This document shows positions 7,308 to 18,963 of a DNA stretch of 64,000 nucleotides, one piece after another (the first letter of the stretch is position 1; every line of letters begins with the position of its first letter). The stretch is from the NCBI RefSeq assembly GCF_900182925.1, contig NZ_LT900024.1, forward strand, positions 496,001-560,000, in the 5' to 3' direction. Below the pieces are notes generated by a model. That model saw only the letters and a list, made by a program, of their open reading frames with translations. It did no database searches and was not told the DNA's origin. Made by a program: the position numbers and the translations under genes. Source of the stretch: Psychrobacter sp. LV10R520-6. GTDB taxonomy: Bacteria; Pseudomonadota; Gammaproteobacteria; Pseudomonadales; Moraxellaceae.

Positions 7308-8504
7308 CTATTGCTCCCAACCATATACTACATCTATAGTACTTAAGTGATCTATTACCTTCGGAGAAAGTTTAACAAATGGATTTCCATTAAGATTAAT
7401 CCATTCTAAATTAGTTAGCTGTGTGAGACTGTCAGGTAAATCTCTAAGATTACAGTCAGTAAGGTTAATCTTAGTTAAGTTAGTAAGCTGACTAATACTC
7501 TCAGGCAAATCTCTCAGCTCACAATTAATAAGATTAAGCTCAATTAGGTTAGTCAGTTTCCCAATACTATCAGGTAGCTCTCTGAGGTCACAGTGGATAA
7601 GATCAAGCCTAGTAAGATTAGTGAGTTCTCCGATACTGTCAGGTAGCTCTTTAAACTCAGAATGGCTAATAAAAAGCTCAGTCAGGTTACTGAGTTGACC
7701 AATGCTATCCGGTAATTCTTTAAGCTCACAATGATTAATATAAAGCTTATTTAAATTAGTAAGCTGACCAATACTAGCTGGCAAATATTTGAGTTTACAG
7801 TGAATAAGATCGAGCTGAGTAAGATTAGTAAGTTGACCCATACTATCCGGCAGATGTTTGAGCTCACAATAGCTAATAAACAGCTTAACAAGTTTGTGGA
7901 GTTGACCAATGCTGTTAGGTAGCTCCCTAAGCTCACAATGCACAAGATCAAGTATCGTAAGGTTGCTAAGTTGCCCAATATTGTGGGGCAAGCATCTAAG
8001 CTGACAGCGACTAATAAAAAGCCTATTGAGGTTGGTAAGTTGACTGATACTGTCAGGCAGTTCTTTAAGTTGACTTTCATCTATAAAGAGTTCAGTAAGG
8101 TTACTGAGTTGTCCGATACTATCAGGTAATGCTGTAAGGTTAGAATGACTAATAGAAAGTTTGGTCAGGTTAGGGAGTTGGCCTATATTCTGCGGTAAAT
8201 GACTCGAATAGATACCACTAATAGTTATTTCTACGAGATTGGTGAGAAAGGTGAGTTCATCAGGTATATAGTCCATTCTATAGACATCTCTAGAGTGTTG
8301 TTCATCCAGCTCAGGCTCTAAAACTTCCAGCTTCTTTATGGCTAGTAGCGCCTCTTTATTACGAGGGACTTCAGAGTCCAGTAACTCAAAATCGTCTGCC
8401 CATACCCATATTTTCTCAATCCAACTGTCATCAGTATCTAGAGCTTTATTGGTAGCATTAGATTCAGGGGTATCTTGATAACTCTTATTATTATTTTGAG
8501 CCAT
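7308..8504 (-). CDS. Leucine-rich-repeat protein, cytoplasmic type
   Basis: A 398-residue protein with an acidic N-terminal region of about 85 residues (no signal peptide or membrane segment), then thirteen consecutive 23-residue leucine-rich repeats (about 87-385) of the pattern LTNLTxLxLxxCxLxELPDSIGQ. Such solenoids usually form a curved protein-binding surface. There is no attached enzymatic, anchoring or E3-ligase domain. AAGGAG lies upstream of the ATG. The gene stands alone, flanked by gaps and by the oppositely regulated lipid A locus. A role in protein-protein interaction is the only supported inference; bacterial LRR proteins are sometimes effectors, but no secretion signal is visible here. 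Confidence 0.85.
   Translation of the reverse strand: MAQNNNKSYQDTPESNATNKALDTDDSWIEKIWVWADDFELLDSEVPRNKEALLAIKKLEVLEPELDEQHSRDVYRMDYIPDELTFLTNLVEITISGIYSSHLPQNIGQLPNLTKLSISHSNLTALPDSIGQLSNLTELFIDESQLKELPDSISQLTNLNRLFISRCQLRCLPHNIGQLSNLTILDLVHCELRELPNSIGQLHKLVKLFISYCELKHLPDSMGQLTNLTQLDLIHCKLKYLPASIGQLTNLNKLYINHCELKELPDSIGQLSNLTELFISHSEFKELPDSIGELTNLTRLDLIHCDLRELPDSIGKLTNLIELNLINCELRDLPESISQLTNLTKINLTDCNLRDLPDSLTQLTNLEWINLNGNPFVKLSPKVIDHLSTIDVVYGWEQ
7350..8246 (-). repeat. Thirteen 69-bp repeats encoding the LRR solenoid
   Basis: A 69-bp periodicity runs through the LRR gene, visible as recurrent stretches such as CTATCAGGTAGCTC and GTTAGTAAGCTGACCAAT on the plus strand. Several units are close enough in sequence to recombine, so repeat number could vary between strains. 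Confidence 0.8.
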
Positions 8505-8615: not shown

Positions 8616-9353
8616 CTATATCGCTGTTCTTATGTTTATAGTAGGCCTTTTGAAAAAAACACTTGCGAACGCGCAAGCTATCGTCAATGACAGCAACATA
8701 GATATCAAAGTATGACTAAAAAAATGGTCGCCAAAGAGCATCTTATACAGACCCATTGTCCATCCTAAAATAGTGACTATTGTAAATATTTTGTAGCGAT
8801 GCTGTCGTAGGGTTGGTAAAAACGCTAACCCATATAAAGAAAACCCTGCGCTAGCATGAGCGGCTGGAAAGCATTTTTCTGGTGTCATGGCTACTATGTT
8901 TTGCCAGAGGTTAAGATAGGGCAAATCGCCATTGAAAAGAGTCAAGTGATTCGGGCAACTAACGTGGGTTACGCCTTTTAGCAGTGCAATACTAGTAGGT
9001 ACCATAATTATGGTCATTAACAGATAGCCTAGCTCTCGGCTGGATAATGCTGAAATTGGCTTAACAAAGAATAGCTTAGCAATCTTGATATTAGAATATC
9101 GACTTTGCCAATACCGCCAAGTTAATGTCGTTATTAAGTAGATGCCCAATAAAATTAATAGTAACTTAGGGAAGTCATAAAAAATAAAAGCATAAGGCTG
9201 CGCGCCTTTTTCTAACAGCCAATGTCCGTTTGAATAGAAGAGCTCACTAATACGAACATCAAGTTGGCTGTGCTCAAATGTCAGGGTCGCAATGATAGTT
9301 AAGCACAGTAATTTGAGCCAGACCCAATCAGTTGAGTTATTTTCTGAAGTCAT
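8616..9353 (-). CDS. PAP2-superfamily membrane phosphatase
   Basis: A 245-residue integral membrane protein with six hydrophobic segments and PAP2 motifs: CFPAAHASAGFSLYG (catalytic-pocket motif 2, a PSGH variant) and GDHFFSHTL (motif 3, with the nucleophilic His in GDHFFSH). PAP2 enzymes dephosphorylate lipid phosphates such as phosphatidate, undecaprenyl diphosphate or lipid A 1-phosphate. The gene follows dgkA by 48 bp on the same strand, so the two are probably co-transcribed. With EptA and DedA nearby, a role in lipid A or carrier-lipid recycling is likely. It could be an LpxE-, PgpB- or LpxT-like protein; the sequence does not decide. Confidence 0.85.
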   Translation of the reverse strand: MTSENNSTDWVWLKLLCLTIIATLTFEHSQLDVRISELFYSNGHWLLEKGAQPYAFIFYDFPKLLLILLGIYLITTLTWRYWQSRYSNIKIAKLFFVKPISALSSRELGYLLMTIIMVPTSIALLKGVTHVSCPNHLTLFNGDLPYLNLWQNIVAMTPEKCFPAAHASAGFSLYGLAFLPTLRQHRYKIFTIVTILGWTMGLYKMLFGDHFFSHTLISMLLSLTIACAFASVFFKRPTINIRTAI

Positions 9354-9401: not shown

Positions 9402-9875
9402 TCAATACAAAAGGCTTGATAACGCCATTAACCATAATATCAACAAAAGTAATAATGCCAAAAATTGCGCAGCAGAACCCACATCTTTGGCTATTTTAGC
9501 GAGCGGATGTTGGTTCGTTGAGGTATGGTCAACACTGGCTTCAATACCCGTGTTAAATAACTCAACGATAAGGGATAAAAAAGAGGCGATTATCAGCATC
9601 ATTTTTATACTGGTATCAAAAGGGATGAATATAATGGCAATGAACAACACAAGATTAAGCCAAAAAACCTGTCTAAAAGCCGCCTCAAACTTGTAAGCCG
9701 CTTTAAAGCCATCTAAAGAGTAACCTGTGGCTTTCATAACACGAGAAAACCCTTTTTTGCCTTTAGCATGACTGGCATAGCTATCGGGATCAAGCAACTG
9801 GTTGGCGGGCGTTTGGTTTAGAGGGTCGCAATTGACCTGGTCGTCATCAAGATTAATGGGATTAACTTTGCTCAT
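9402..9875 (-). CDS. dgkA: Diacylglycerol kinase
   Basis: A 157-residue protein with the DgkA core from about residue 40: GFSRVMKATGYSLDGFKAA, then KFEAAFRQVFWLN and the signature VELFNTGIEASVDH...KDVGSAAQFLAL, with three membrane helices. The enzyme phosphorylates diacylglycerol to phosphatidate in the inner membrane and so recycles the product left when EptA takes phosphoethanolamine from phosphatidylethanolamine. The first 40 residues are a polar extension absent from the 122-residue E. coli enzyme. A PmrA-type box with a -10 sequence lies 112 bp upstream of the start. It is followed by the PAP2 phosphatase gene. Confidence 0.95.
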   Translation of the reverse strand: MSKVNPINLDDDQVNCDPLNQTPANQLLDPDSYASHAKGKKGFSRVMKATGYSLDGFKAAYKFEAAFRQVFWLNLVLFIAIIFIPFDTSIKMMLIIASFLSLIVELFNTGIEASVDHTSTNQHPLAKIAKDVGSAAQFLALLLLLILWLMALSSLLY

Positions 9876-9969: not shown

Positions 9970-10003
9970 AGTATAAAACAGTGAAGATTAAGAAAACGTT
10001 AAG
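9970..10003 (-). promoter_or_regulatory. Predicted PmrA box and promoter of dgkA-PAP2
   Basis: On the minus strand: CTTAAC-GTTTT-CTTAAT (box 10003-9987), an 11-nt spacer, then the -10-like TATACT (9975-9970). The box matches the YTTAA-N6 direct-repeat half-sites known for PmrA/BasR. The same box and the same 11-nt distance occur before eptA and dedA. Confidence 0.7.
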
Positions 10004-10173
10004 ACAGTATTAGTTCTCGCATATAACAATCCGTTAAGTGCGAGGGTTATTGTTTTAGGGGTCTTGTAATAGAGTTTTCGTTGAGCTTATAAGATAAAGG
10101 ACATTCAGTACCATTCGCCGTCCAACCAATTTTTCAAAGACAGTCCATTTATAGCCGCTATTTATGAGAAACA

Positions 10174-11538
10174 TTATTTATAATAAATACTAAACGTACT
10201 GCCACCGGTCTCATTCGCTTGATGCGTTAACTGCCAGTCCATATGAGTCATAATACGCTGCACGATACTAAGCCCCAGACCTGTACCTTCTACGTCACTA
10301 CTAGAGCTAGAGTATTCATGCGACGCGGACTGATTTTTGGACTCGTTATCACTTTGATCGCCTGTACTTTTATGATCTAAACGTTCAAATCTTTCGTATA
10401 GCAAAGGCATCATAATCTCAGGAATACCAAGGCCAGTATCGGTCACCGTAATCTTTTCAGCATCGATAGTGACGATTACTTCGCCATCATCGGTGTATTG
10501 AAAAGCATTTTTTATTAAATTACCCAAGGCCATTTTTAGCAGTTCAGGTCGTACGTCTGCCACATAGTCCTGCTCAGCAACTATTGTGCAAGTCACGGGT
10601 TTGTATTTGAGTAAATATTTTAGGCGTGTAACCTCATTCATGGCAATAGTATTGATAGACGTCTGCGGTGTGTCCAGTTGTTCAGGATTACGAGATAGCA
10701 GCAATAAAGCACTGATAATCTCAGAGGTTTCTTTAGCGGTATTGCTGATACGGTCGGTAAATTCGCTCAAGCGACTATTATCTTCTAATTGCGCTGCAAG
10801 CACTTCTGATGCTCCTAAGATAATAGTCAATGGTGTGCGTAGCTCGTGACTGACATCCCCTGTAAACAGCTGCTCTCGCTTTAAATACTGTGCTAGCTTA
10901 TGATTTTTATCATCAATGGCCCGTGCCAATACCCCAACTTCTGAAGGCAGATGGGTCAATTGGGTTAAATTTTGATGATCAGTCTCTACTGCTTGCTTTA
11001 GGGATAATAACGGCTTAGTGATTTGTTTGGAGGATAAATGAGAGAATATCGCTGCGATAAGTAAACTCAAAATGACAGCGATTTTCAGCGCATCAGCAAA
11101 TATGTCTTCTAGGTGCTCAAAAATTGCTAAGACCGGATAGTTTGCCATCACCATTTCGGTGTCTTCTAAGTAAGTCAAAATATAATCTCGTTTATTTTTT
11201 TTATAATTGAAAAAATGAAGTTTAGTCTTAGTTTTATTTTCTTCAGTGTTTATAGTCACCGAAATTTCTTGCACCATTTCAGTTGCCAGAGTTTGTAGGC
11301 TCAAAGGTGCCTTGTCGTAATGGTAAATCTTAATGCCCGGATCGGCAGTATAAATAGCCCGTTCGCCATACTTCTCTTGACTAAGCTCTAGCTGCTGTAA
11401 GAGACGACCTTTTACCAATTCTTGTTCCATTCTAACCTCAGCATATAAGAAAATACTGACGAAAGTCGCACACAGCAAAACCGCAAACACGAGGTAGGAT
11501 AGCCGAAATTTATTGACGATGGAGGTTAGATTGAACAT
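10174..11538 (-). CDS. pmrB: PmrB-like sensor histidine kinase
   Basis: A 454-residue sensor kinase: membrane helix about 14-34, a periplasmic sensor loop of about 110 residues, a second helix about 150-168, HAMP region, phospho-acceptor motif SHELRTPL with His231, N box NLIKNAFQYT, and DTGLGIP and GTGLGLSIV ATP-binding motifs. It would phosphorylate the OmpR-type regulator encoded upstream. In the Acinetobacter pmrCAB operon the kinase directly follows the regulator; here an IS200/IS605 element separates them by about 1.8 kb. The kinase frame itself is intact, but its expression may now depend on read-through or an element-borne promoter. The name is inferred from context. Confidence 0.85.
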   Translation of the reverse strand: MFNLTSIVNKFRLSYLVFAVLLCATFVSIFLYAEVRMEQELVKGRLLQQLELSQEKYGERAIYTADPGIKIYHYDKAPLSLQTLATEMVQEISVTINTEENKTKTKLHFFNYKKNKRDYILTYLEDTEMVMANYPVLAIFEHLEDIFADALKIAVILSLLIAAIFSHLSSKQITKPLLSLKQAVETDHQNLTQLTHLPSEVGVLARAIDDKNHKLAQYLKREQLFTGDVSHELRTPLTIILGASEVLAAQLEDNSRLSEFTDRISNTAKETSEIISALLLLSRNPEQLDTPQTSINTIAMNEVTRLKYLLKYKPVTCTIVAEQDYVADVRPELLKMALGNLIKNAFQYTDDGEVIVTIDAEKITVTDTGLGIPEIMMPLLYERFERLDHKSTGDQSDNESKNQSASHEYSSSSSDVEGTGLGLSIVQRIMTHMDWQLTHQANETGGSTFSIYYK

Positions 11539-11630
11539 AGCGTTTACTTCTTAGATAGTAAGAAACGACAAATAACTGAGTCGTAACGGTTGTAGATGTG
11601 ATTGGTTGTTTATCAAAAAGTGCCGTAAAA

Positions 11631-11651
11631 CCACGTCGTTCTAAGGCGTGG
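11631..11651. repeat. Left-end hairpin of the IS200/IS605 element
   Basis: CCACG (11631-11635) pairs with CGTGG (11647-11651). The loop resembles that of the right-end hairpin. In this family TnpA recognises such hairpins as single-stranded DNA. Confidence 0.65.
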
Positions 11652-11664
11652 ATGTAAGGCATTT

Positions 11665-12075
11665 CTAGTTAGGTACTTGCTGTTGGTCGATATATTGTCT
11701 AATAACTTCAATTGAAGCCCCGCCACAGCTTGAAGCAAAATAACTGGGCGACCACAGTGCGCTACCCCAAAGTTCTTGATTGATAGAAACGTAGTTTTTT
11801 TTACGAATCATTCTGCTAGACACCCCTTTTAAGCTATTTACTAAAGATGAAATGCTGACTTTTGGCGGGTAATTAACCAAAAGATGCACATGATCTTCTT
11901 CACCATTAAACTCTACGAGCTGAGCATTAAAATCCTGACAGACCTGATTTAATATTAAGCTCAGTTCATCTAACCCCTCTTTGGTAAATACTTTTCCTCT
12001 ATATTTAGTAACAAAGACCAAATGAACGTGAAGATTATAAACAACGTGTCTACCACGCCTTAATGTGTTTGACAT
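11665..12075 (-). CDS. tnpA: IS200/IS605-family Y1 transposase TnpA
   Basis: About 136 residues from the ATG at 12075 (MSNTLRRGRHVVYNLHVHLVF). An alternative upstream start at 12102 adds nine residues. It shows the HUH motif HVHLLVNYP and the catalytic Tyr in EVIRQYIDQQ, the Y1 single-strand transposase layout, at the normal family length. It cuts and rejoins single-stranded DNA at the hairpin ends. The frame is intact, so the element may still be mobile or able to mobilise related ends. It is transcribed in the same direction as the downstream kinase gene. Confidence 0.9.
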   Translation of the reverse strand: MSNTLRRGRHVVYNLHVHLVFVTKYRGKVFTKEGLDELSLILNQVCQDFNAQLVEFNGEEDHVHLLVNYPPKVSISSLVNSLKGVSSRMIRKKNYVSINQELWGSALWSPSYFASSCGGASIEVIRQYIDQQQVPN

Positions 12076-12123
12076 ACCATTAGACCAAATGTAAAATAAC
12101 ATTAAATCATTATAGTTTAAACC

Positions 12124-13279
12124 ATGAAAACACTCAAGCTACGTATCAAAGATAAGCACGCCAATCAGTTAAATAAGCTGTCTGGCGCGGTGAATTTTGT
12201 GTGGAACTATGTGAATGATTTGAGTTTTAAGCACTTACAACGCACCGGGCATTTCTTTTCAGCATACGATATAGCAGCCTATACCAAAGGCAGCGGTGAA
12301 TTTCTAAATCTGCACAGCCAAACCCTTCAAGCGATCACTGAAACCCATGCCAAAAGCCGCAAGCAATTTAAGAAAGCAAAACTGAATTGGCGCACTAACA
12401 ACCCTAAAGCCAAGCGTAAAAGCTTAGGCTGGATTCCTTTTAAAAAATCGGCCATCAAGTATTTAGGTGTCAAGAAGGCGGGTAAGAAAAGCCTTAAATC
12501 CACCATTCAATTCAGTCTTACCAAAGGTAAAAACCTGACTATTGATGTGTGGGATAGCTACAATTTAGCCCTCTACACCATCAATACTTGTGAATTAATA
12601 CAAGACAGTCGTGGTCTTTGGTATGCGTGCGTGACGGTTAAAGAGTTTCCAAAGATTGAGCGCGGTACTGGTGAGGTTGGTATCGACTTAGGGTGCAAGG
12701 ATTCAGCGACGACAAGCGACGGTGACACCTTAGTAACCAAATTGACCCATAAATACGCACCAAAACTAGGCATCGCTCAACGCGCTAATAATAAAGAGCG
12801 GGTTAAGGCCATTCATGCCAAGATAAAAAATACCCGCCAAGACTTGATCCATAAATTCACCACTAAGCTTGTCAAAGATAATAAAACAATCATTGTTGGC
12901 AAACTACAATCAAAATCATTCACTTCAAGCAAACTGGCCAAGTCCGTCTATGACGCTGGTTGGTTTGAAGTAAAACGGCATGAGCGAGGATAAAGTAAAG
13001 CACTGCTTTGCCCGAGCGCAAGGCGTAGGGCTATGCCTGAAGTTAACCTATAAATGCGAGAACGCAGGTTGCCATTATGACGAGGTGAATGAAAGCTACA
13101 CCACCCAAACCTGTTCGTGCTGCGGCTCACGCCAAAACAGTCCGAAAGGTAGGACAGATTTGAGAATAAGAGAATGGCTTTGCGAGTGCGGTGTCACTCA
13201 TCAACGCGACGTTAATGCGGCAAAAAACATTCTTGCGCTCGGGCTTGAGCGTCTAGCAGTAGGAATCACCGTCGTTTAG
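12124..13279 (+). pseudogene. tnpB: tnpB (RNA-guided nuclease family), broken by an internal insertion and frameshift
   Basis: A TnpB split over two frames. 12124-12993 carries the N-terminal part, including the RuvC-I Asp in GIDLGCKDSATTSDG and VGKLQSKSFTSSKLAKSVYDAGW. 12980-13279 carries DEVNESYTTQTCSCCGS, the zinc-ribbon partner LCECG and the last RuvC Asp in RDVNAAKNIL. Family members normally read GW.....L.YKC without interruption; here about 61 extra bases (near 12979-13039) separate GWFEVKR from LTYKCENAG, shift the frame and add a TAA at 12991. The RuvC-II Glu is not in the usual I.vEdL position (VGKL here), and EVNESYTTQ is the candidate, as in the rearranged-active-site TnpB group. 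It is probably inactive as written. Confidence 0.8.
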
Positions 13280-13287
13280 GGCGGTGA
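13266..13287. repeat. Right-end hairpin of the IS200/IS605 element
   Basis: TCACCG (13266-13271) pairs with CGGTGA (13282-13287) around a TCGTTTAGGG loop. In this family the 3' end of the tnpB transcript, which forms the guide-bearing RNA, ends at this region, so a reRNA gene may overlap it. No RNA boundaries can be set from sequence alone. Confidence 0.6.
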
Positions 13288-13348
13288 GGAAGTCAAAGAA
13301 GCGCGCATTAGAATTAGGTCATAAAACGTCAACAATTACCATTAATGA

Positions 13349-14026
13349 TCAGAGATCTATGATCTGATAGCCGACACCTGGTACCGTAACTATAAGGGCT
13401 TTGGAAAATGGCTTGTCGACCTGTGTACGGACACTATGCATATGTGTACGCAAAGCATCACTACTTGGAATATCTTGCCCCCATATCTTTTCCTCAAGCT
13501 CGGTTTTACTGACTACCCGAGGCGAGGCACTCATTAACGTATGCAAGACCTTAAACCCTATCGGTGTCAGTTTTATCAGTCGATCTTCTCGCTTCACATT
13601 ATGCTCATTAGGATTTAAAAACAATGCCCCTACGGTAAGGTTGTGCTGAAAATGTTCATCTTGATCACGTCGTATCAAGGCTTTGATACGGGCTTCTAAT
13701 TCGACTAGTGAGAACGGTTTAACCAGATAATCATCGGCACCACTATCAAACCCTGCCACCTTATCCATAATAGTGTCACGTGCTGTGAGCATTAATACTG
13801 GAGTCTTATTATGCAGATCTTCTCTAAGCTTTTTGCATAATTTGGTGCCATTTATACCTGGGAGCATTACGTCCAACAATATAACGTCATAACGATTGCT
13901 TGACGCCAGTGCCAAGCCGCTAAGTCCATTATGAGCATTGTCTAGCTCAAAACCTTTTGGCTCAAAAAAAGCATAAATATTTGCCACAATATCGGGATTA
14001 TCTTCAATAACGAGTATTTTGTACAT
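13349..14026 (-). CDS. pmrA: PmrA-like OmpR-family response regulator
   Basis: About 225 residues from ATG 14026 (MYKILVIEDNPDI), preceded by GGTGG. An ATG at 14038 would add four residues. The receiver domain shows the acidic pair ED, the phospho-acceptor Asp in VILLDVMLPG and the Lys in DDYLVKPFS. The C-terminal winged helix has TPIGFKVLHTLM and LRTHMHSVR. It lies 44 bp downstream of eptA on the same strand. The order eptA-regulator-kinase mirrors pmrCAB of Acinetobacter, where it activates lipid A modification. Three matching boxes nearby are likely targets. An insertion sequence separates it from its presumed kinase. Confidence 0.88.
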   Translation of the reverse strand: MYKILVIEDNPDIVANIYAFFEPKGFELDNAHNGLSGLALASSNRYDVILLDVMLPGINGTKLCKKLREDLHNKTPVLMLTARDTIMDKVAGFDSGADDYLVKPFSLVELEARIKALIRRDQDEHFQHNLTVGALFLNPNEHNVKREDRLIKLTPIGFKVLHTLMSASPRVVSKTELEEKIWGQDIPSSDALRTHMHSVRTQVDKPFSKALIVTVPGVGYQIIDL

Positions 14027-14070
14027 AATTGCCACCATCTCAAAAAAGCTTAGCTATAATAAAAGAATGT

Positions 14071-15744
14071 TTAATTAGCAGATTCAAAAAAAGTGGGTGC
14101 TGCTGTAACTTCTTGAGTAGTAATACCAAAAAAGCTCAGTAAAGTTGGCGTAATAAAATCATGAGATACCGGCTGATTGGTCATATCAGATAGACTGTCA
14201 GAATTAATACTATTGTCTTTGGGAGACCAGATAATTACTGGTACCTGCTTTTGGGCATTTGGCGCAATACTGTAGGGAAGGCCATGCAAATAGATGTTGT
14301 TTTCACCCAAACTCTCCCCATGATCACTAATATATACCATCACCACATCATAATCTTGCTGATAGGGTTTTAGCGTATCGATAACGGTATTTAAAAAGTA
14401 ATCGGTATAACGAATCGCATTGTCATAACCATTGATGACGGACTGGGCATCACATTTTGAAAGCTCGTTAGTCATACATACCGGCTTGTATTCCTCAAAC
14501 GCTTTGGGATAGCGTTTGTAATAAGCAGGGCCATGATTACCCATCTGATGCAATAAAATTAGCGTATCTTTTGGTGCTGCGTCTGACTTTACTAACTTAT
14601 CAAAACCGTCAAGCATACCAATATCTCGACATTCACTATCGCAATTAGGATTTACCTCGGGGGTTTTATAGTCCTCAAAAGTCACTCGGTCTGCCACACC
14701 TTTAGAGTTAGAGTTATTGTCTCGCCAAATAACATTAACGCCTTGCTTATTTAACGTATCAAGCACATTTTCGTTATACTCAGCAGTATCGACATCGTAG
14801 TCTTCTCTATTGGCATAACTGAACATGCAAGGCACCGAATACGCTGTAGATGTCCCGCAAGAAGTCGCATCTTTAAAACTATAAATATCTGGTTGGCTGG
14901 CGAGTAGTGGCATCGTATCGCGCTTATAGCCATTCAAGCCAATATGATCAGCGCGAACCGTTTCTCCTACTACAAATACCATTAGCTTAGGCTTCGCATT
15001 GCCGACAGTATTTGTCCGCTTAGCATCTACAGCGTGAGCAGTCATCGTATCAGGGCGATTTAGCTCATCCATGTAGTCCATACCGAGCTTAACAACTGAA
15101 TAGATGGGCGTAATTGGATTGGTATAGCTACGCACTAATTTATGTTGACGAAAAAAGCTGGCGTACTGATCACCGAATGGCAATAGGCAGACTGCTATTA
15201 GGGCAATAGACAGTATCAAAGTGGCTGTCTTTTGCAATATTGCTCGACGCCAAGAAGGACGCTTTAAACGAATTTTGCTAATAATAAAGGCTGGTAGTAC
15301 GCCTAATAACAGCAGTCGAATAATCAAGCTTGGTGCCATCAATCCCATCGCTTCAGCTTGATCGGTTTGCAAGCTATTGACCAGCATATTACGGTCAAAT
15401 ATCGTTCCGTAGGCATCGGTAAAATAGCCACAGATTGCAGCAATAATCACCATTGCAATCAATACTACCTTTGCCGTTGGTCGATAGCATAGCAGTTGGA
15501 ATAGCAACCACATCAACCCAAACAATAAGCCAGTAAGAGAAACTATAAAGCCGATATTATCAGCGAACGGATAGACAGTTAATACTTGCTTAAAAAAGCC
15601 AATATTTGCTGTAGCGACCAAATACAGTGCAACCACTATGATCAGGTAATTAAGATTTATCTCACGATGGTAGAATTTGCTTATATAGCCGTTTTTACTA
15701 TCAGCTTTAGTAACATTGATGCTAAGTGCTTGAGGTATTGACAT
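14071..15744 (-). CDS. eptA: Lipid A phosphoethanolamine transferase
   Basis: About 557 residues from ATG 15744 (MSIPQALS); a longer start at 15780 is less likely. Five N-terminal membrane helices span about residues 30-195, followed by a periplasmic sulfatase-fold domain. Visible motifs are VGETVRADH (metal ligand Glu), SCGTSTAYSVPCMFS (containing the nucleophilic Thr and conserved Cys) and YISDHGESLGE...HGLPY (Asp/His metal ligands). The enzyme moves phosphoethanolamine from phosphatidylethanolamine to lipid A, lowers surface charge and is linked to polymyxin resistance. It heads the putative eptA-pmrA-pmrB operon and has a PmrA box with a -10 sequence 42-75 bp upstream. Confidence 0.95.
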   Translation of the reverse strand: MSIPQALSINVTKADSKNGYISKFYHREINLNYLIIVVALYLVATANIGFFKQVLTVYPFADNIGFIVSLTGLLFGLMWLLFQLLCYRPTAKVVLIAMVIIAAICGYFTDAYGTIFDRNMLVNSLQTDQAEAMGLMAPSLIIRLLLLGVLPAFIISKIRLKRPSWRRAILQKTATLILSIALIAVCLLPFGDQYASFFRQHKLVRSYTNPITPIYSVVKLGMDYMDELNRPDTMTAHAVDAKRTNTVGNAKPKLMVFVVGETVRADHIGLNGYKRDTMPLLASQPDIYSFKDATSCGTSTAYSVPCMFSYANREDYDVDTAEYNENVLDTLNKQGVNVIWRDNNSNSKGVADRVTFEDYKTPEVNPNCDSECRDIGMLDGFDKLVKSDAAPKDTLILLHQMGNHGPAYYKRYPKAFEEYKPVCMTNELSKCDAQSVINGYDNAIRYTDYFLNTVIDTLKPYQQDYDVVMVYISDHGESLGENNIYLHGLPYSIAPNAQKQVPVIIWSPKDNSINSDSLSDMTNQPVSHDFITPTLLSFFGITTQEVTAAPTFFESAN

Positions 15745-15785
15745 ACACGGACTTCTTAATAGAATGAGAAAGGGTGTCATTCTTT

Positions 15786-15819
15786 AAGGTAGCAGGTGTG
15801 GTGTTAAGAAAATGTTAAG
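15786..15819 (-). promoter_or_regulatory. Predicted PmrA box and promoter of eptA-pmrA
   Basis: On the minus strand: CTTAAC-ATTTT-CTTAAC (15819-15803), 11 nt, then TGC-TACCTT (extended -10-like, hexamer 15791-15786). The layout is the same as before dedA and dgkA. Confidence 0.75.
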
Positions 15820-15897
15820 CTGGTTGGGCTTGAAAAGTGGTTTAGAGCTTGAGTCAAAAACTATGAGAGCTGAGTATTCAATGAGAGATTTTTAGCA

Positions 15898-16533
15898 TTA
15901 GATATCGGTTGTATTGAGCTGGTTATGAGTAGACCGTCGGCGTTTGATAAACCAACCTATGATAATCATCACAGTAAGTAGCAAGAAAACTTTGGAATAT
16001 GGCGCGAGTGTGGCTTCGATAACTTCATAATTGCTACCGAAGTGATAGCCTGCAAGCGTTAGTAAAGTTATCCAAATGCTTGATCCTAAAGCAGTGAGTA
16101 GCAAAAAAGGAAGCATCGGCATTTTATTCATACCTGCAGGAATAGAGATAAGCGAGCGAATGCCTGGCACCATGCGTCCAAAAAATACCGTTTTTTTGCC
16201 ATGTTTATCAAACCAATGACTCGAAGCCAGTACGTCATCAGACTTGACAAACACATACTTGCCATATTTTTTAGTAAATATCATTAAACGCTCTTCATTG
16301 AACAAGCTTCCCAGATAATACAAAGGTAATGCTCCAAGCACGGTGCCAAGCGTACCGGCTAGTATGACTACTATAAGATTTAGATCACCTCTTGCCACTG
16401 CAAAACCTGCTGCTGGCATGATAACTTCAGAGGGTATAGGGGGGAAAACATTTTCGGCAAACATGGCAAAGATGATACCGAAGTAGCCAAACTTTGCCAT
16501 AATAGTCAGCACCCATTCGCTAATTTGGTTCAT
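15898..16533 (-). CDS. DedA-family membrane protein
   Basis: A 211-residue polytopic protein of the DedA/SNARE-associated family. Motifs include ENVFPPIPSEVIMPAAGF near the N-terminus, the re-entrant-loop signature FFGRMVPGIRSLISIPAGM, and a basic C-terminus. DedA proteins act as proton-dependent lipid flippases, several of them for undecaprenyl phosphate or phospholipids, and loss often sensitises cells to polymyxin or alkaline pH. The PmrA-type box 50 bp upstream and the adjacent eptA operon suggest co-regulation with lipid A modification. It is transcribed separately from eptA, with a gap of 153 bp. Confidence 0.9.
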   Translation of the reverse strand: MNQISEWVLTIMAKFGYFGIIFAMFAENVFPPIPSEVIMPAAGFAVARGDLNLIVVILAGTLGTVLGALPLYYLGSLFNEERLMIFTKKYGKYVFVKSDDVLASSHWFDKHGKKTVFFGRMVPGIRSLISIPAGMNKMPMLPFLLLTALGSSIWITLLTLAGYHFGSNYEVIEATLAPYSKVFLLLTVMIIIGWFIKRRRSTHNQLNTTDI

Positions 16534-16565
16534 TGTGAACGCTCGCTAAATGATTGAAGAAGACT

Positions 16566-16599
16566 AGCGTAGCAAGTTAGATGTTAAAAAAGGGTTAAG
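16566..16599 (-). promoter_or_regulatory. Predicted PmrA box and promoter of dedA
   Basis: On the minus strand: CTTAAC-CCTTT-TTTAAC (16599-16583), 11 nt, then TGC-TACGCT (hexamer 16571-16566). The TTGCTAC stretch matches the TGCTAC before eptA at the same position. Confidence 0.7.
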
Positions 16600-16755: not shown

Positions 16756-16832
16756 TGGCGCAGCGGACGGGACTCGAACCCGCGACCCCCGGCGTGACAG
16801 GCCGGTATTCTAACCAACTGAACTACCGCTGC
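16756..16832 (-). tRNA. tRNA-Asp (GTC)
   Basis: A 77-nt cloverleaf with acceptor stem GCAGCGG/CCGCTGC, D arm GTTCAGTTGGTTAGAAT, anticodon loop CTGTCAC (anticodon GTC), T arm GCGGGTTCGAGTCCCGT and encoded CCA. It follows tRNA-Val by 54 bp on the same strand. Confidence 0.97.
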
Positions 16833-16886
16833 TTAGGTCGTTTTAGCGTCTTGCCCTTATAAATAGGACCCACTTCGCTAAATGAG

Positions 16887-16962
16887 TGGTGGGTGATGAC
16901 GGATTCGAACCGCCGACATTCTGCGTGTAAGGCAGACGCTCTACCAACTGAGCTAATCACCC
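16887..16962 (-). tRNA. tRNA-Val (TAC)
   Basis: A 76-nt cloverleaf with acceptor GGGTGAT/ATCACCC, D arm GCTCAGTTGGTAGAGC, anticodon loop CTTACAC (anticodon TAC), T arm GGCGGTTCGAATCCGTC and encoded CCA. It is first in a two-tRNA transcript. Confidence 0.97.
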
Positions 16963-17148: not shown

Positions 17149-17325
17149 ATATTATTTCACATATTTTATAAAATGGTCGCTATTATGTGGCAAAGGTAAA
17201 TGATTAGGGGCAAAGGCAGGCTACACAGTTGCCTATTGTGTGACTGCCAAAAGTTACTATACTAGTAACGTTTTAGTAAAGGTGCTTATATTTAGTTGGT
17301 TTTAATTAATGAGTCGTATTGGTTG

Positions 17326-18963
17326 ATGGAGGTGAACATAAAAGCTTTAACTACTGAGTCGCAACTTGCAGCGTGGTCGTGGGGCGACTTTGCAGGGTAC
17401 GGTCTCATATTGAACATTATCTTGATGGTGGTGCTGACCCTACGTATTGTTTCGGTGCAGCGCAACATTGGGGTAGCCATTGCGTGGATAGCCGTGTTGT
17501 ATACGCTACCTCTAGTAGGGCTGTTTGCTTATATTTTGGTGGGTGAGCCCATGATTGGTCGCCGTTATCGTCAACGGATGGAACAGGCAGGCCTCATTAT
17601 GAATGAGATGGCAGAGCGTGAACGTTTGGTTTTTGATAAAGGCCAAGAGCTACTGCCTGAACACTATCGCGGTGTTAGCCAAATGGGCACCCGCTGGACA
17701 GGGTTTGGGGTATTTTCAGACCATGATATGCAGCTATTAACTCACCCTAATGCTATTTTTGAGCTTTTGATTGATGATATCAATGCCGCTCAACGTACTA
17801 TTTTGATGGAGTTTTATATTATCTATCCGAAGGGGCAGGTACTAAATGTCATACAAGCGTTGATGGCGGCCGCTCAGCGCGGTGTAGAGTGTCACCTTCT
17901 CATAGATAGTGTGGGTAGCTTTAGTTTCTTTAATAGCGCCGAGCATAGGGATTTAGAACGTGCTGGCGTTTTTGTGCACCAATCGCTGCCAGTAGGTTTA
18001 TTTAAGACCTTATTTAAGCGTTCTGATCTGCGCAATCATCGCAAGATTATGGTTATTGACGAATATATTGGTTATATCGGTAGTTTTAACTTGGTCGATC
18101 CCAAGTTTTTTAAGCAAGATAAAGATGTCGGTCAGTGGATTGATGTGGCGATACGTAGTGTCAGTCAGCAGCCAATAAGTATTGCCACTGCGATGGCTAA
18201 GGTAGTGGTCACTGATATTGGCGCTGAGAATAGTGACAATTTAGATGCGTTGCATCAACGAGTTAACAACTATACTCGTAAATTATACGTGTTAGATCCG
18301 ACTATTAACGATATGAACAGTCGAATAAAGGTGCTAGATGATGGCGTAGATCATTTTGAACAGCTTAACACTGGGTCAACGTCGATTGTAATTCCGCAGA
18401 TGCCGGTGGTAAAAGGTGTGGTAGCGCAGCTGATTCCTTCAGCACCACAAGTGACCGCACATGTGATTTATAATACTTTAGTAACCATTATCCACCGCGC
18501 TAATAAACGTATTCAAATCACCACGCCATATTTTGTTCCTGATGAAGCTTTATCAGGAGCGTTAGTCACAGCGGCTAAGCGGGGGGTCGAGGTCACGCTG
18601 ATTGTCCCTGAAAAGGTCGATTCGTTTTTGGTACAGCATGCTTCGCAAGCTTATTATCAAGAGCTGTTAGAGGCGGGGGTGACCATTGCGCTATTTAAAG
18701 GCGGCCTGTTACATGCCAAAACAGTGATTATCGATGATGACTATTGTCTATTTGGTACGGTCAATATTGATATGCGCAGCTTTTATTTAAATATGGAAGT
18801 TAGTTTGGCGATTTATACGCCAGAAATGGTCGCGCAGGTTGCTGACTGTCAGGAGTCATACTTACAAAGCTGTCGTTTTATGGGCTTAGAAGAATGGGAG
18901 CAGCGCCATGATTATAAACGCTTATTCGATAATGTCGTACGCCTGTTTAGTCCCTTGCTGTAG
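17326..18963 (+). CDS. cls: Cardiolipin synthase (phospholipase D superfamily)
   Basis: About 545 residues from ATG 17326; a TTG at 17296 would add ten. Two N-terminal membrane helices are followed by two phospholipase D domains with HKD motifs: HRKIMVIDEYIGYIGSFN in the first and HAKTVIIDDDYCLFGTVN in the second. The enzyme condenses phosphatidylglycerol molecules into cardiolipin at the inner membrane. Both catalytic His/Lys/Asp sets are intact and length is close to the family norm of about 480-510. It is monocistronic, with the next gene 118 bp away. Which Cls paralogue this is (A, B or C) is not clear, but the N-terminal membrane region argues for ClsA-like. Confidence 0.93.
   Translation: MEVNIKALTTESQLAAWSWGDFAGYGLILNIILMVVLTLRIVSVQRNIGVAIAWIAVLYTLPLVGLFAYILVGEPMIGRRYRQRMEQAGLIMNEMAERERLVFDKGQELLPEHYRGVSQMGTRWTGFGVFSDHDMQLLTHPNAIFELLIDDINAAQRTILMEFYIIYPKGQVLNVIQALMAAAQRGVECHLLIDSVGSFSFFNSAEHRDLERAGVFVHQSLPVGLFKTLFKRSDLRNHRKIMVIDEYIGYIGSFNLVDPKFFKQDKDVGQWIDVAIRSVSQQPISIATAMAKVVVTDIGAENSDNLDALHQRVNNYTRKLYVLDPTINDMNSRIKVLDDGVDHFEQLNTGSTSIVIPQMPVVKGVVAQLIPSAPQVTAHVIYNTLVTIIHRANKRIQITTPYFVPDEALSGALVTAAKRGVEVTLIVPEKVDSFLVQHASQAYYQELLEAGVTIALFKGGLLHAKTVIIDDDYCLFGTVNIDMRSFYLNMEVSLAIYTPEMVAQVADCQESYLQSCRFMGLEEWEQRHDYKRLFDNVVRLFSPLL

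Follow-up and report, generated by a model that had tools for sequence, protein, structure and literature searches.

EptA frees diacylglycerol from phosphatidylethanolamine, DgkA recycles this diacylglycerol, and in enteric bacteria the PmrA box reads CTTAAT-N5-CTTAAT. In Escherichia coli BasRS controls dgkA (PMC8138132), in colistin-resistant Acinetobacter baumannii a dgkA gene rises along with pmrC (PMC6330354), and in Pseudomonas putida the regulator ColR activates dgkA, the PAP2 gene PP0900 adjoining colR, and cptA (PMC2689224, PMC4074579). P. putida ColRS is described as binding direct repeats and sensing Zn and Fe via an ExxE motif (PMC2689224, PMC4074579), a motif that ColS and RaxH carry just ahead of the second transmembrane stretch (TM2), their genes lying by lpxE (PMC8306577); pap2 and dgkA have also been reported to matter for MCR-type enzymes (PMC10285318). 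The coupling of phosphoethanolamine transfer with dgkA is therefore already known, and the new part is its Psychrobacter form under the regulator considered here. In Psychrobacter sp. LV10R520-6 the genes dedA, eptA, a response regulator gene, an IS200/IS605 element, a histidine kinase gene, dgkA and a PAP2 gene follow one another on the minus strand, within an analysed window of 64 kb (bases 496001-560000 of the single 3.22-Mb contig). We consider it probable that three boxes at this locus, in front of eptA, dgkA and dedA, are binding sites of the response regulator of the eptA operon, and that they define a ColR-type lipid A remodelling regulon of three promoters.

A common box in front of eptA, dgkA and dedA

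The pattern YTTAAY-N5-YTTAAY occurs three times in the window, always on the minus strand (Table 1), and has no other match there; 100 shuffles of the window gave a mean of 0.43 matches, three being reached in one shuffle. A -10-like hexamer begins exactly 11 nt past each box and TGCTAC is common to the eptA and dedA promoters, so that the three 17-bp repeats and the promoter spacing given in a preliminary description of this DNA were recovered in full. The same description had left the frequency of the motif in random DNA as a point to settle, and here the answer is divided: the loose box is common, with 37 matches in the genome vs 16 for its backward control (the context of 30 of the 37 was looked at), whereas its clustering and its combination with a -10 are not. 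From the other 34 loose sites 0.07 would be expected per 6.6 kb (Poisson probability of three or more about 5e-5), and the genome-wide search for the box followed by N11 and TANNNT returned three matches, exactly the dgkA, eptA and dedA sites, vs two for the backward control, a count that is not independent of these sites since they had served to shape the hexamer pattern. A stricter pattern derived from relatives, with up to three mismatches allowed, matched 16 times in the genome (backward control 0); only the three window boxes had 0-2 mismatches, no further site in this genome doing so, and the remaining 13 had three each. In the window a nearly identical pattern gave three matches vs a shuffle mean of 0.08. 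A sigma-70 scan recovered none of the three -10 hexamers together with a -35, as expected if the promoter is activator-dependent; if the spacer were 17 nt long, the -35 hexamer would consist of the last base of the first half-site plus N5, which would fit an activator bound across the -35, and in a study of Klebsiella pneumoniae PmrA the -35 element was likewise assigned to the half-1 site (PMC4660055).

Conservation was followed in 100 genomes of the genus, one per species, of which 75 carry the linked regulator, in 82 places, the surroundings being examined at all 82. The refined motif CTTAACN4TCTTAAYN11YANNNT was present in 73 of the 75 regulator-bearing genomes vs one of the 25 without the regulator (Fisher 1e-19, relatedness ignored), its backward control matching once in the 100 genomes, and in the two regulator-bearing exceptions (G052 and G086) the eptA box is present with G as first base. 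In the comparison of upstream regions across Psychrobacter, which the preliminary description had suggested, eptA copies carry the exact pattern in 81 of 84 cases and the relaxed one in 84 of 84 (three copies were counted twice, leaving 81 distinct; the relaxed form has its first base free and 10-12 nt to the -10, and over 2.81 Mb of strand-bases from these loci it matched 175 times, a number that includes the true sites), and dgkA copies carry the exact box in 73 of 88. Among the 15 boxless dgkA copies, 13 lie away from the regulator (L205-L217), four of these in regulator-less genomes and two (in G001 and G059) away only as other contigs of fragmented assemblies; the box was found before none of the 13, one of which had less than 150 nt upstream. 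The other two are those of G096, with one changed base, and G020. In several genomes dgkA-pap2 stands kilobases from the kinase gene and the box is kept with dgkA, and in G010, where no dgkA was found, it stands in front of PAP2. Before the regulator gene (0 of 82) and the kinase gene (0 of 79) the exact box was not found.

For dedA, 30 of 43 places were examined, and the box was found at 7 of 23 loci in regulator-bearing genomes vs none of 7 in genomes without the regulator; an additional dedA in L122 had no box. The dedA box of the window is the weakest of the three, with two mismatches to the tighter pattern, and its absence at 23 of the 30 loci would suit a regulon of eptA and dgkA-pap2 only, the dedA box being decayed or a chance match without function. 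We regard this as rather unlikely, since the dedA box is among only three genome sites with 0-2 mismatches, recurs in G080, G085, G049 and G029 with identical -10 spacing and at 49-53 nt from the start, and is missing from all seven regulator-less loci. In G029 dedA is boxed although it lies 180 kb from the regulator, and in G006 and G048 the -10 of the dedA box does not fit the N11 rule. Fragments of dedA persist upstream of eptA in G017, G069 and G019, which suggests an old neighbourhood of the two genes. As far as the compared loci indicate, dedA is a lineage-restricted member of the predicted regulon. The single control of all three promoters that had been proposed earlier is therefore retained as a cis-element common to eptA and dgkA-pap2 throughout the genus, and for dedA it holds only in a subset.

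Other genes of relatives stand behind similar boxes. DUF347 membrane-protein genes with box and -10 were seen at L096:12114-12908, L152:2516-3199 and L183:12124-12930, and G022, G068 and G092 have boxed DUF347 genes outside the stretch around the regulator. Genes of the cytochrome b561 and YceI families (L096:14809-15333; L122:2249-2869; L092:1607-2263) also follow boxes and are possible further members of the regulon. In G011 (L221, G011:C1:1477500-1483500), the one of the 25 genomes above that has the refined motif, the regulator was not found, yet a full box stands directly before eptA, with dedA and a YceI-like gene (judged by eye) nearby; we propose that this eptA is an orphan or newly acquired target.

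Identity of the regulator

The linked regulator had been described as PmrA, and its cluster as the eptA-pmrA-pmrB operon of Acinetobacter. The eptA-regulator-kinase order agrees with this, as do the direct repeat with a 5-nt spacer, found also in the A. baumannii box HTTAAD-N5-HTTAAD (PMC12654582), and the links of BasRS and pmrC with dgkA (PMC8138132, PMC6330354), but the protein itself belongs to a different OmpR/PhoB lineage. Against the PmrA equivalog model NF007928 it reached 165.3 bits, the cut-off being 330, and this was only its fifth-best model; the cut-off alone is not decisive, three eptA-linked regulators of g15 (which we infer to be Acinetobacter-like) also falling below it at 205-219 bits, with PmrA as their best model. 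None of 60 genus genomes had a match above this cut-off. Within its own genome the linked regulator ranks third as a PmrA match (235.3, 169.9 and 164.7 bits), and maximum-likelihood trees set it apart from E. coli BasR and Acinetobacter-like PmrA (97/93 with a first set of sequences, 100/99 with a second, the tree program giving a long-branch warning for both, which tempers this separation). In the second tree it is also apart from the PmrA/QseB-type paralogue of its own genome, and it shares 36.4% identity with BasR, while two Acinetobacter-like PmrA proteins reach 37.3 and 35.3%.

The residues that would meet the DNA differ as well. K. pneumoniae PmrA contacts bases through T187, N188, V192, H195, N196 and R210 (PMC4660055); mapped by hand via the alignment of E. 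coli BasR, the corresponding positions of the linked regulator are S, D, T, H, S and P, one of six being identical (H195) and one an S for T. The layout of the HTTAAD box is found in our boxes and its base 6 is not: this base is C in both half-sites of eptA and dedA and in the first half of dgkA. In L284-L297 (mostly g15) HTTAAG-N5-HTTAAG precedes eptA in most loci and the neighbouring PAP2 gene in several, so that g15 seems to follow a similar logic with a different regulator and a different base 6. With a regulator outside the PmrA clade, ranking third in its own genome and changed at five of six contact residues, boxes bound by a PmrA as in Acinetobacter pmrCAB are improbable, and on trees, model scores and own-genome ranking the PmrA identity was rejected. 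The idea that dgkA is regularly boxed in other genera was likewise dismissed: among 24 dgkA loci outside the genus, none of the six in g7/g10 had HTTAAN-N5-HTTAAN within 300 nt, and the repeats of g15 were patchy and mostly not of the eptA form. Wright et al. named 21 genes in an A. baumannii Pmr regulon (PMC5340874).

The best PmrA/QseB-type regulator of the genome (G000:C1:1180319-1180963) is encoded about 670 kb from eptA. That this protein, rather than the linked one, binds the boxes has little to commend it beyond its presence (235 bits) and a BasR-like recognition helix. In a table of 60 genomes (G000-G059), with PmrA/QseB-type defined by our own threshold of at least 200 bits with the PmrA family model, 19 genomes carried the linked regulator and no PmrA/QseB-type one, and boxes were found in 18 of them; they were lacking in four of the five that have only the latter (1 of 5 boxed), and control by such a regulator was rejected on this co-occurrence. 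Overall, boxes occur in 44 of 45 genomes with the linked regulator vs 1 of 15 without; this table is a sharper test than the genus-wide count of the refined motif (73 of 75 vs one of 25), which is partly circular since regulator, eptA and box belong to a single cluster. Lastly, that the three repeats are chance products of TTAA-rich spacer DNA, as 37 loose matches in the genome might hint, is next to impossible given their clustering (P about 5e-5), their uniqueness with a -10 and their genus-wide conservation, the last of which ruled it out.

Organization of the locus and roles of its products

The features of the locus are collected in Table 1. The listed eptA start is only 5 nt past the -10, so position 15744 is probably the true start, and the PAP2 gene follows dgkA after 48 nt and thus presumably shares its operon. 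The IS200/IS605 element, with a Y1 transposase gene on the minus strand and a tnpB-like gene on the plus strand in two overlapping frames, widens the regulator-kinase gap to 1810 nt vs a median of 108 among 83 pairs; the insertion is peculiar to this strain, and no match to its tnpA was found in the other loci compared. Its presence may uncouple the kinase from the promoter of eptA.

Table 1. Boxes, -10-like hexamers and genes of the locus (window positions)
Feature	Position	Strand	Basis
Regulator box of dedA (CTTAACCCTTTTTTAAC)	16583..16599	-	pattern search
-10-like hexamer TACGCT of dedA, TGC in front (extended -10 type)	16566..16571	-	
dedA, VTT domain; nearest curated model UptA, under cut-off	15898..16533	-	
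Regulator box of eptA (CTTAACATTTTCTTAAC)	15803..15819	-	pattern search and genus conservation
-10-like hexamer TACCTT of eptA, TGC in front	15786..15791	-	
eptA, lipid A phosphoethanolamine transferase	14071..15780	-	
Response regulator (OmpR/PhoB family); proposed cognate activator, probably ColR-type rather than PmrA	13349..14038	-	
IS200/IS605 element genes: tnpA 11665-12102 (-); tnpB-like in two frames, 12124-12993 and 12980-13279 (+)	11665..13279		
Sensor histidine kinase	10174..11538	-	
Regulator box of dgkA (CTTAACGTTTTCTTAAT)	9987..10003	-	pattern search
-10-like hexamer TATACT of dgkA	9970..9975	-	
dgkA, diacylglycerol kinase	9402..9875	-	
PAP2-family lipid A phosphatase	8616..9353	-	

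EptA matched model NF028537 with 756.3 bits, over the cut-off of 500, and is thus a lipid A phosphoethanolamine transferase; its assignment as an mcr allele was discarded, the nearest models (MCR-6, MCR-2 and MCR-1, with 585, 579 and 571 bits) being far below their cut-offs. The PAP2 protein passed the cut-off of 275 of the lipid A phosphatase model NF028538 with 372.1 bits, a match that makes a role in editing lipid A likelier than one in handling diacylglycerol. DedA stayed under the cut-offs of the UptA models NF052605 and NF052604 (143.4 and 138.5 bits vs 300 and 250), so the label of lipid flippase given to it in the preliminary description remains a guess, UptA being nearest and far below threshold. 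The link drawn there between lipid A modification and the recycling of diacylglycerol gains support from the box shared by eptA and dgkA-pap2.

Taken together, the following course of events can be proposed. Two DNA-binding domains of the regulator would occupy the TTAAC half-sites in tandem, at a distance of 11 bp, where the -35 would lie, and the bound regulator would recruit RNA polymerase to the -10 beginning 11 nt downstream, switching on eptA together with its own gene, dgkA with the PAP2 lipid A phosphatase gene, and, in this lineage, dedA. EptA would then shift phosphoethanolamine from phosphatidylethanolamine to lipid A with diacylglycerol left over, DgkA would turn the diacylglycerol back to phosphatidic acid, and PAP2 would trim lipid A phosphates. 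Since the two-component system appears to be of the ColRS type, the likeliest signal would be excess Zn2+ or Fe3+ at the ExxE of the kinase, and the genes of the three promoters together may coat the outer membrane against cationic stress while recycling the waste lipid. Whereas the boxes, their spacing, uniqueness in the genome, conservation and co-occurrence, and the non-PmrA clade were computed, binding, activation, signal, ColR orthology and enzyme roles are what we infer from them.

Outside this set of genes, a 398-amino-acid leucine-rich-repeat protein is encoded directly past PAP2 (7308-8504), all its matches to NCBIfam models of leucine-rich-repeat families being under their cut-offs. 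Beyond dedA lie tRNA-Asp and tRNA-Val genes (16756-16962) and a PLD-family (cardiolipin synthase-like) gene (17296-18963), and in the nearest relative (L094) dedA is missing at the corresponding place.

Comparison with ColRS, mobile and PmrAB systems

The regulon content of ColRS-type systems, i.e., a PAP2/lpxE gene, a phosphoethanolamine transferase gene and dgkA, is found here by box and gene order. The kinase of the window carries EHLE at residues 141-144, just ahead of its second transmembrane stretch (judged by eye), and ExxE is present in 78 of 79 kinases of the genus. Compared with the ColR consensus (T/C)(T/C)NA(C/G)NN(T/C)TTTTT(C/G)AC, which has 13 constrained positions, the eptA, dgkA and dedA boxes show 2, 3 and 1 mismatches. 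This consensus is too loose to decide the matter; from its targets and the ExxE motif we judge the system to work like ColRS and probably to be of that type.

The regulator has its nearest named relative, 99% identical, in Psychrobacter sp. 72-O-c, and a family-wide search at 1e-60 found it only in Psychrobacter (20 of 119 genomes). Among the matches listed (for plasmids, 40 out of at least 5000 records), its nearest relatives outside the genus are plasmid regulators, from Janthinobacterium (53.6%) and Klebsiella (51.1%). The Janthinobacterium regulator gene adjoins genes for a kinase, a phosphoethanolamine transferase and a PAP2 protein, and the Klebsiella one (L356:2861-8459) lies in one neighbourhood with mcr-8.2 and dgkA and groups with the regulator of the window, not with PmrA; the Klebsiella layout has been printed as mcr-8.2-ISEcl1-copR-baeS-dgkA (PMC9310643). 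Within the genus, G036, G039, G044, G050, G051 and G085 carry a cluster copy that begins with the eptA box, includes the regulator and kinase genes and is 99.8% identical along 4.2-5.8 kb, and in these six (L117, L186, L188, L189, L190 and L191; pieces L219 and L220) dgkA-pap2 is likewise near-identical where visible. Near-identity in six species makes the whole regulon appear to move between species; the gene order of G085 would fit a circular molecule of some 49 kb that was opened in the interval separating kinase and dgkA, and the similarity suggests a recent horizontal spread of the whole regulon, perhaps by plasmid.

A number of observations weigh against a ColR-type regulon with three promoters under the linked regulator. 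The dedA loci of regulator-bearing genomes lack the box in 16 of 23 cases. The ColR consensus is loose, with 45 places in the window at 0-2 mismatches, so the box alone does not single out ColR, and letter by letter the boxes of eptA and dgkA resemble the enteric PmrA box no less closely than that of ColR; the orthology with ColR would rest on targets, motif layout, ExxE and neighbourhood. Neither plasmid relative has TTNA(C/T)-N6-TTNA(C/T) within 300 nt before its regulator, phosphoethanolamine transferase, PAP2 or dgkA genes, although within the Klebsiella regulator gene one TTNAC repeat was found, 186 nt ahead of the gene for the kinase. The kinase by mcr-8 is without ExxE at the aligned place, and the nearest chromosomal relative found outside the genus (Neptunomonas, 47.9%) lies by an RND-type gene (judged by eye), not by eptA. 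Some of the co-occurrence of box and regulator is to be expected in any case, as the cluster is gained and lost together and the genomes are related, and with six genomes holding one 99.8%-identical cluster copy the counts are not independent. In the strain studied here, the IS200/IS605 element between the kinase gene and the eptA promoter may have impaired signalling.

If the proposed ColR-type regulon holds, it offers a precise predicted binding site and a small regulon, with three promoters in the genome. A word search of a limited collection found no paper naming Psychrobacter, eptA and pmrA together. Operons of eptA beside two-component systems are readily named pmrCAB, and the present case is a warning against naming by neighbourhood, as a regulator of another lineage seems to have these enzymes under its control by way of a box of similar form, with a metal signal predicted. 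More tentatively, and with somewhat more doubt than confidence, we suggest that the Psychrobacter locus, the Janthinobacterium plasmid and the mcr-8 cassette represent one ColR-type module of regulator, kinase, phosphoethanolamine transferase and PAP2 and/or dgkA, distinct from PmrAB, a self-contained travelling regulon for the control of lipid A remodelling. On this view, mcr-8-like mobile colistin resistance would have arisen by capture of part of such a regulon along with its lipid-recycling partner, and Psychrobacter would hold the version found on the chromosome, complete with the binding site and additional members (dedA, and in relatives DUF347, cytochrome b561 and YceI). That pap2 and dgkA are often found with mobile phosphoethanolamine transferase genes may be explained by their being co-regulated partners.

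Among the described systems, ColRS and RaxRH resemble the Psychrobacter locus in the control of a phosphoethanolamine transferase, dgkA and an adjacent PAP2/lpxE gene and in ExxE before TM2, and ColRS also in direct repeats readable as TTNAC units 11 bp apart (PMC2689224, PMC4074579, PMC8306577); unlike in ColRS, the second half-site is TTAA(C/T) here and TT(C/G)AC there, and eptA belongs to the regulator operon here, being elsewhere in the genome in Pseudomonas. The mcr-8 cassette (mcr-8.2, 'copR-baeS', dgkA) has a regulator 51% identical and a phosphoethanolamine transferase gene and dgkA in its neighbourhood, but mcr-8.2 and the regulator gene are oriented divergently and separated by an IS3 transposase gene, the kinase is without an aligned ExxE, and no box of the window type was found at transferase, regulator or dgkA. 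The PmrAB/BasRS system of enterics and the Acinetobacter pmrCAB share the eptA-regulator-kinase order, the control of eptA and dgkA, and TTAA half-sites with a 5-nt spacer, whereas in Psychrobacter the regulator belongs to another clade with other contact residues, and base 6 of the half-site is C.

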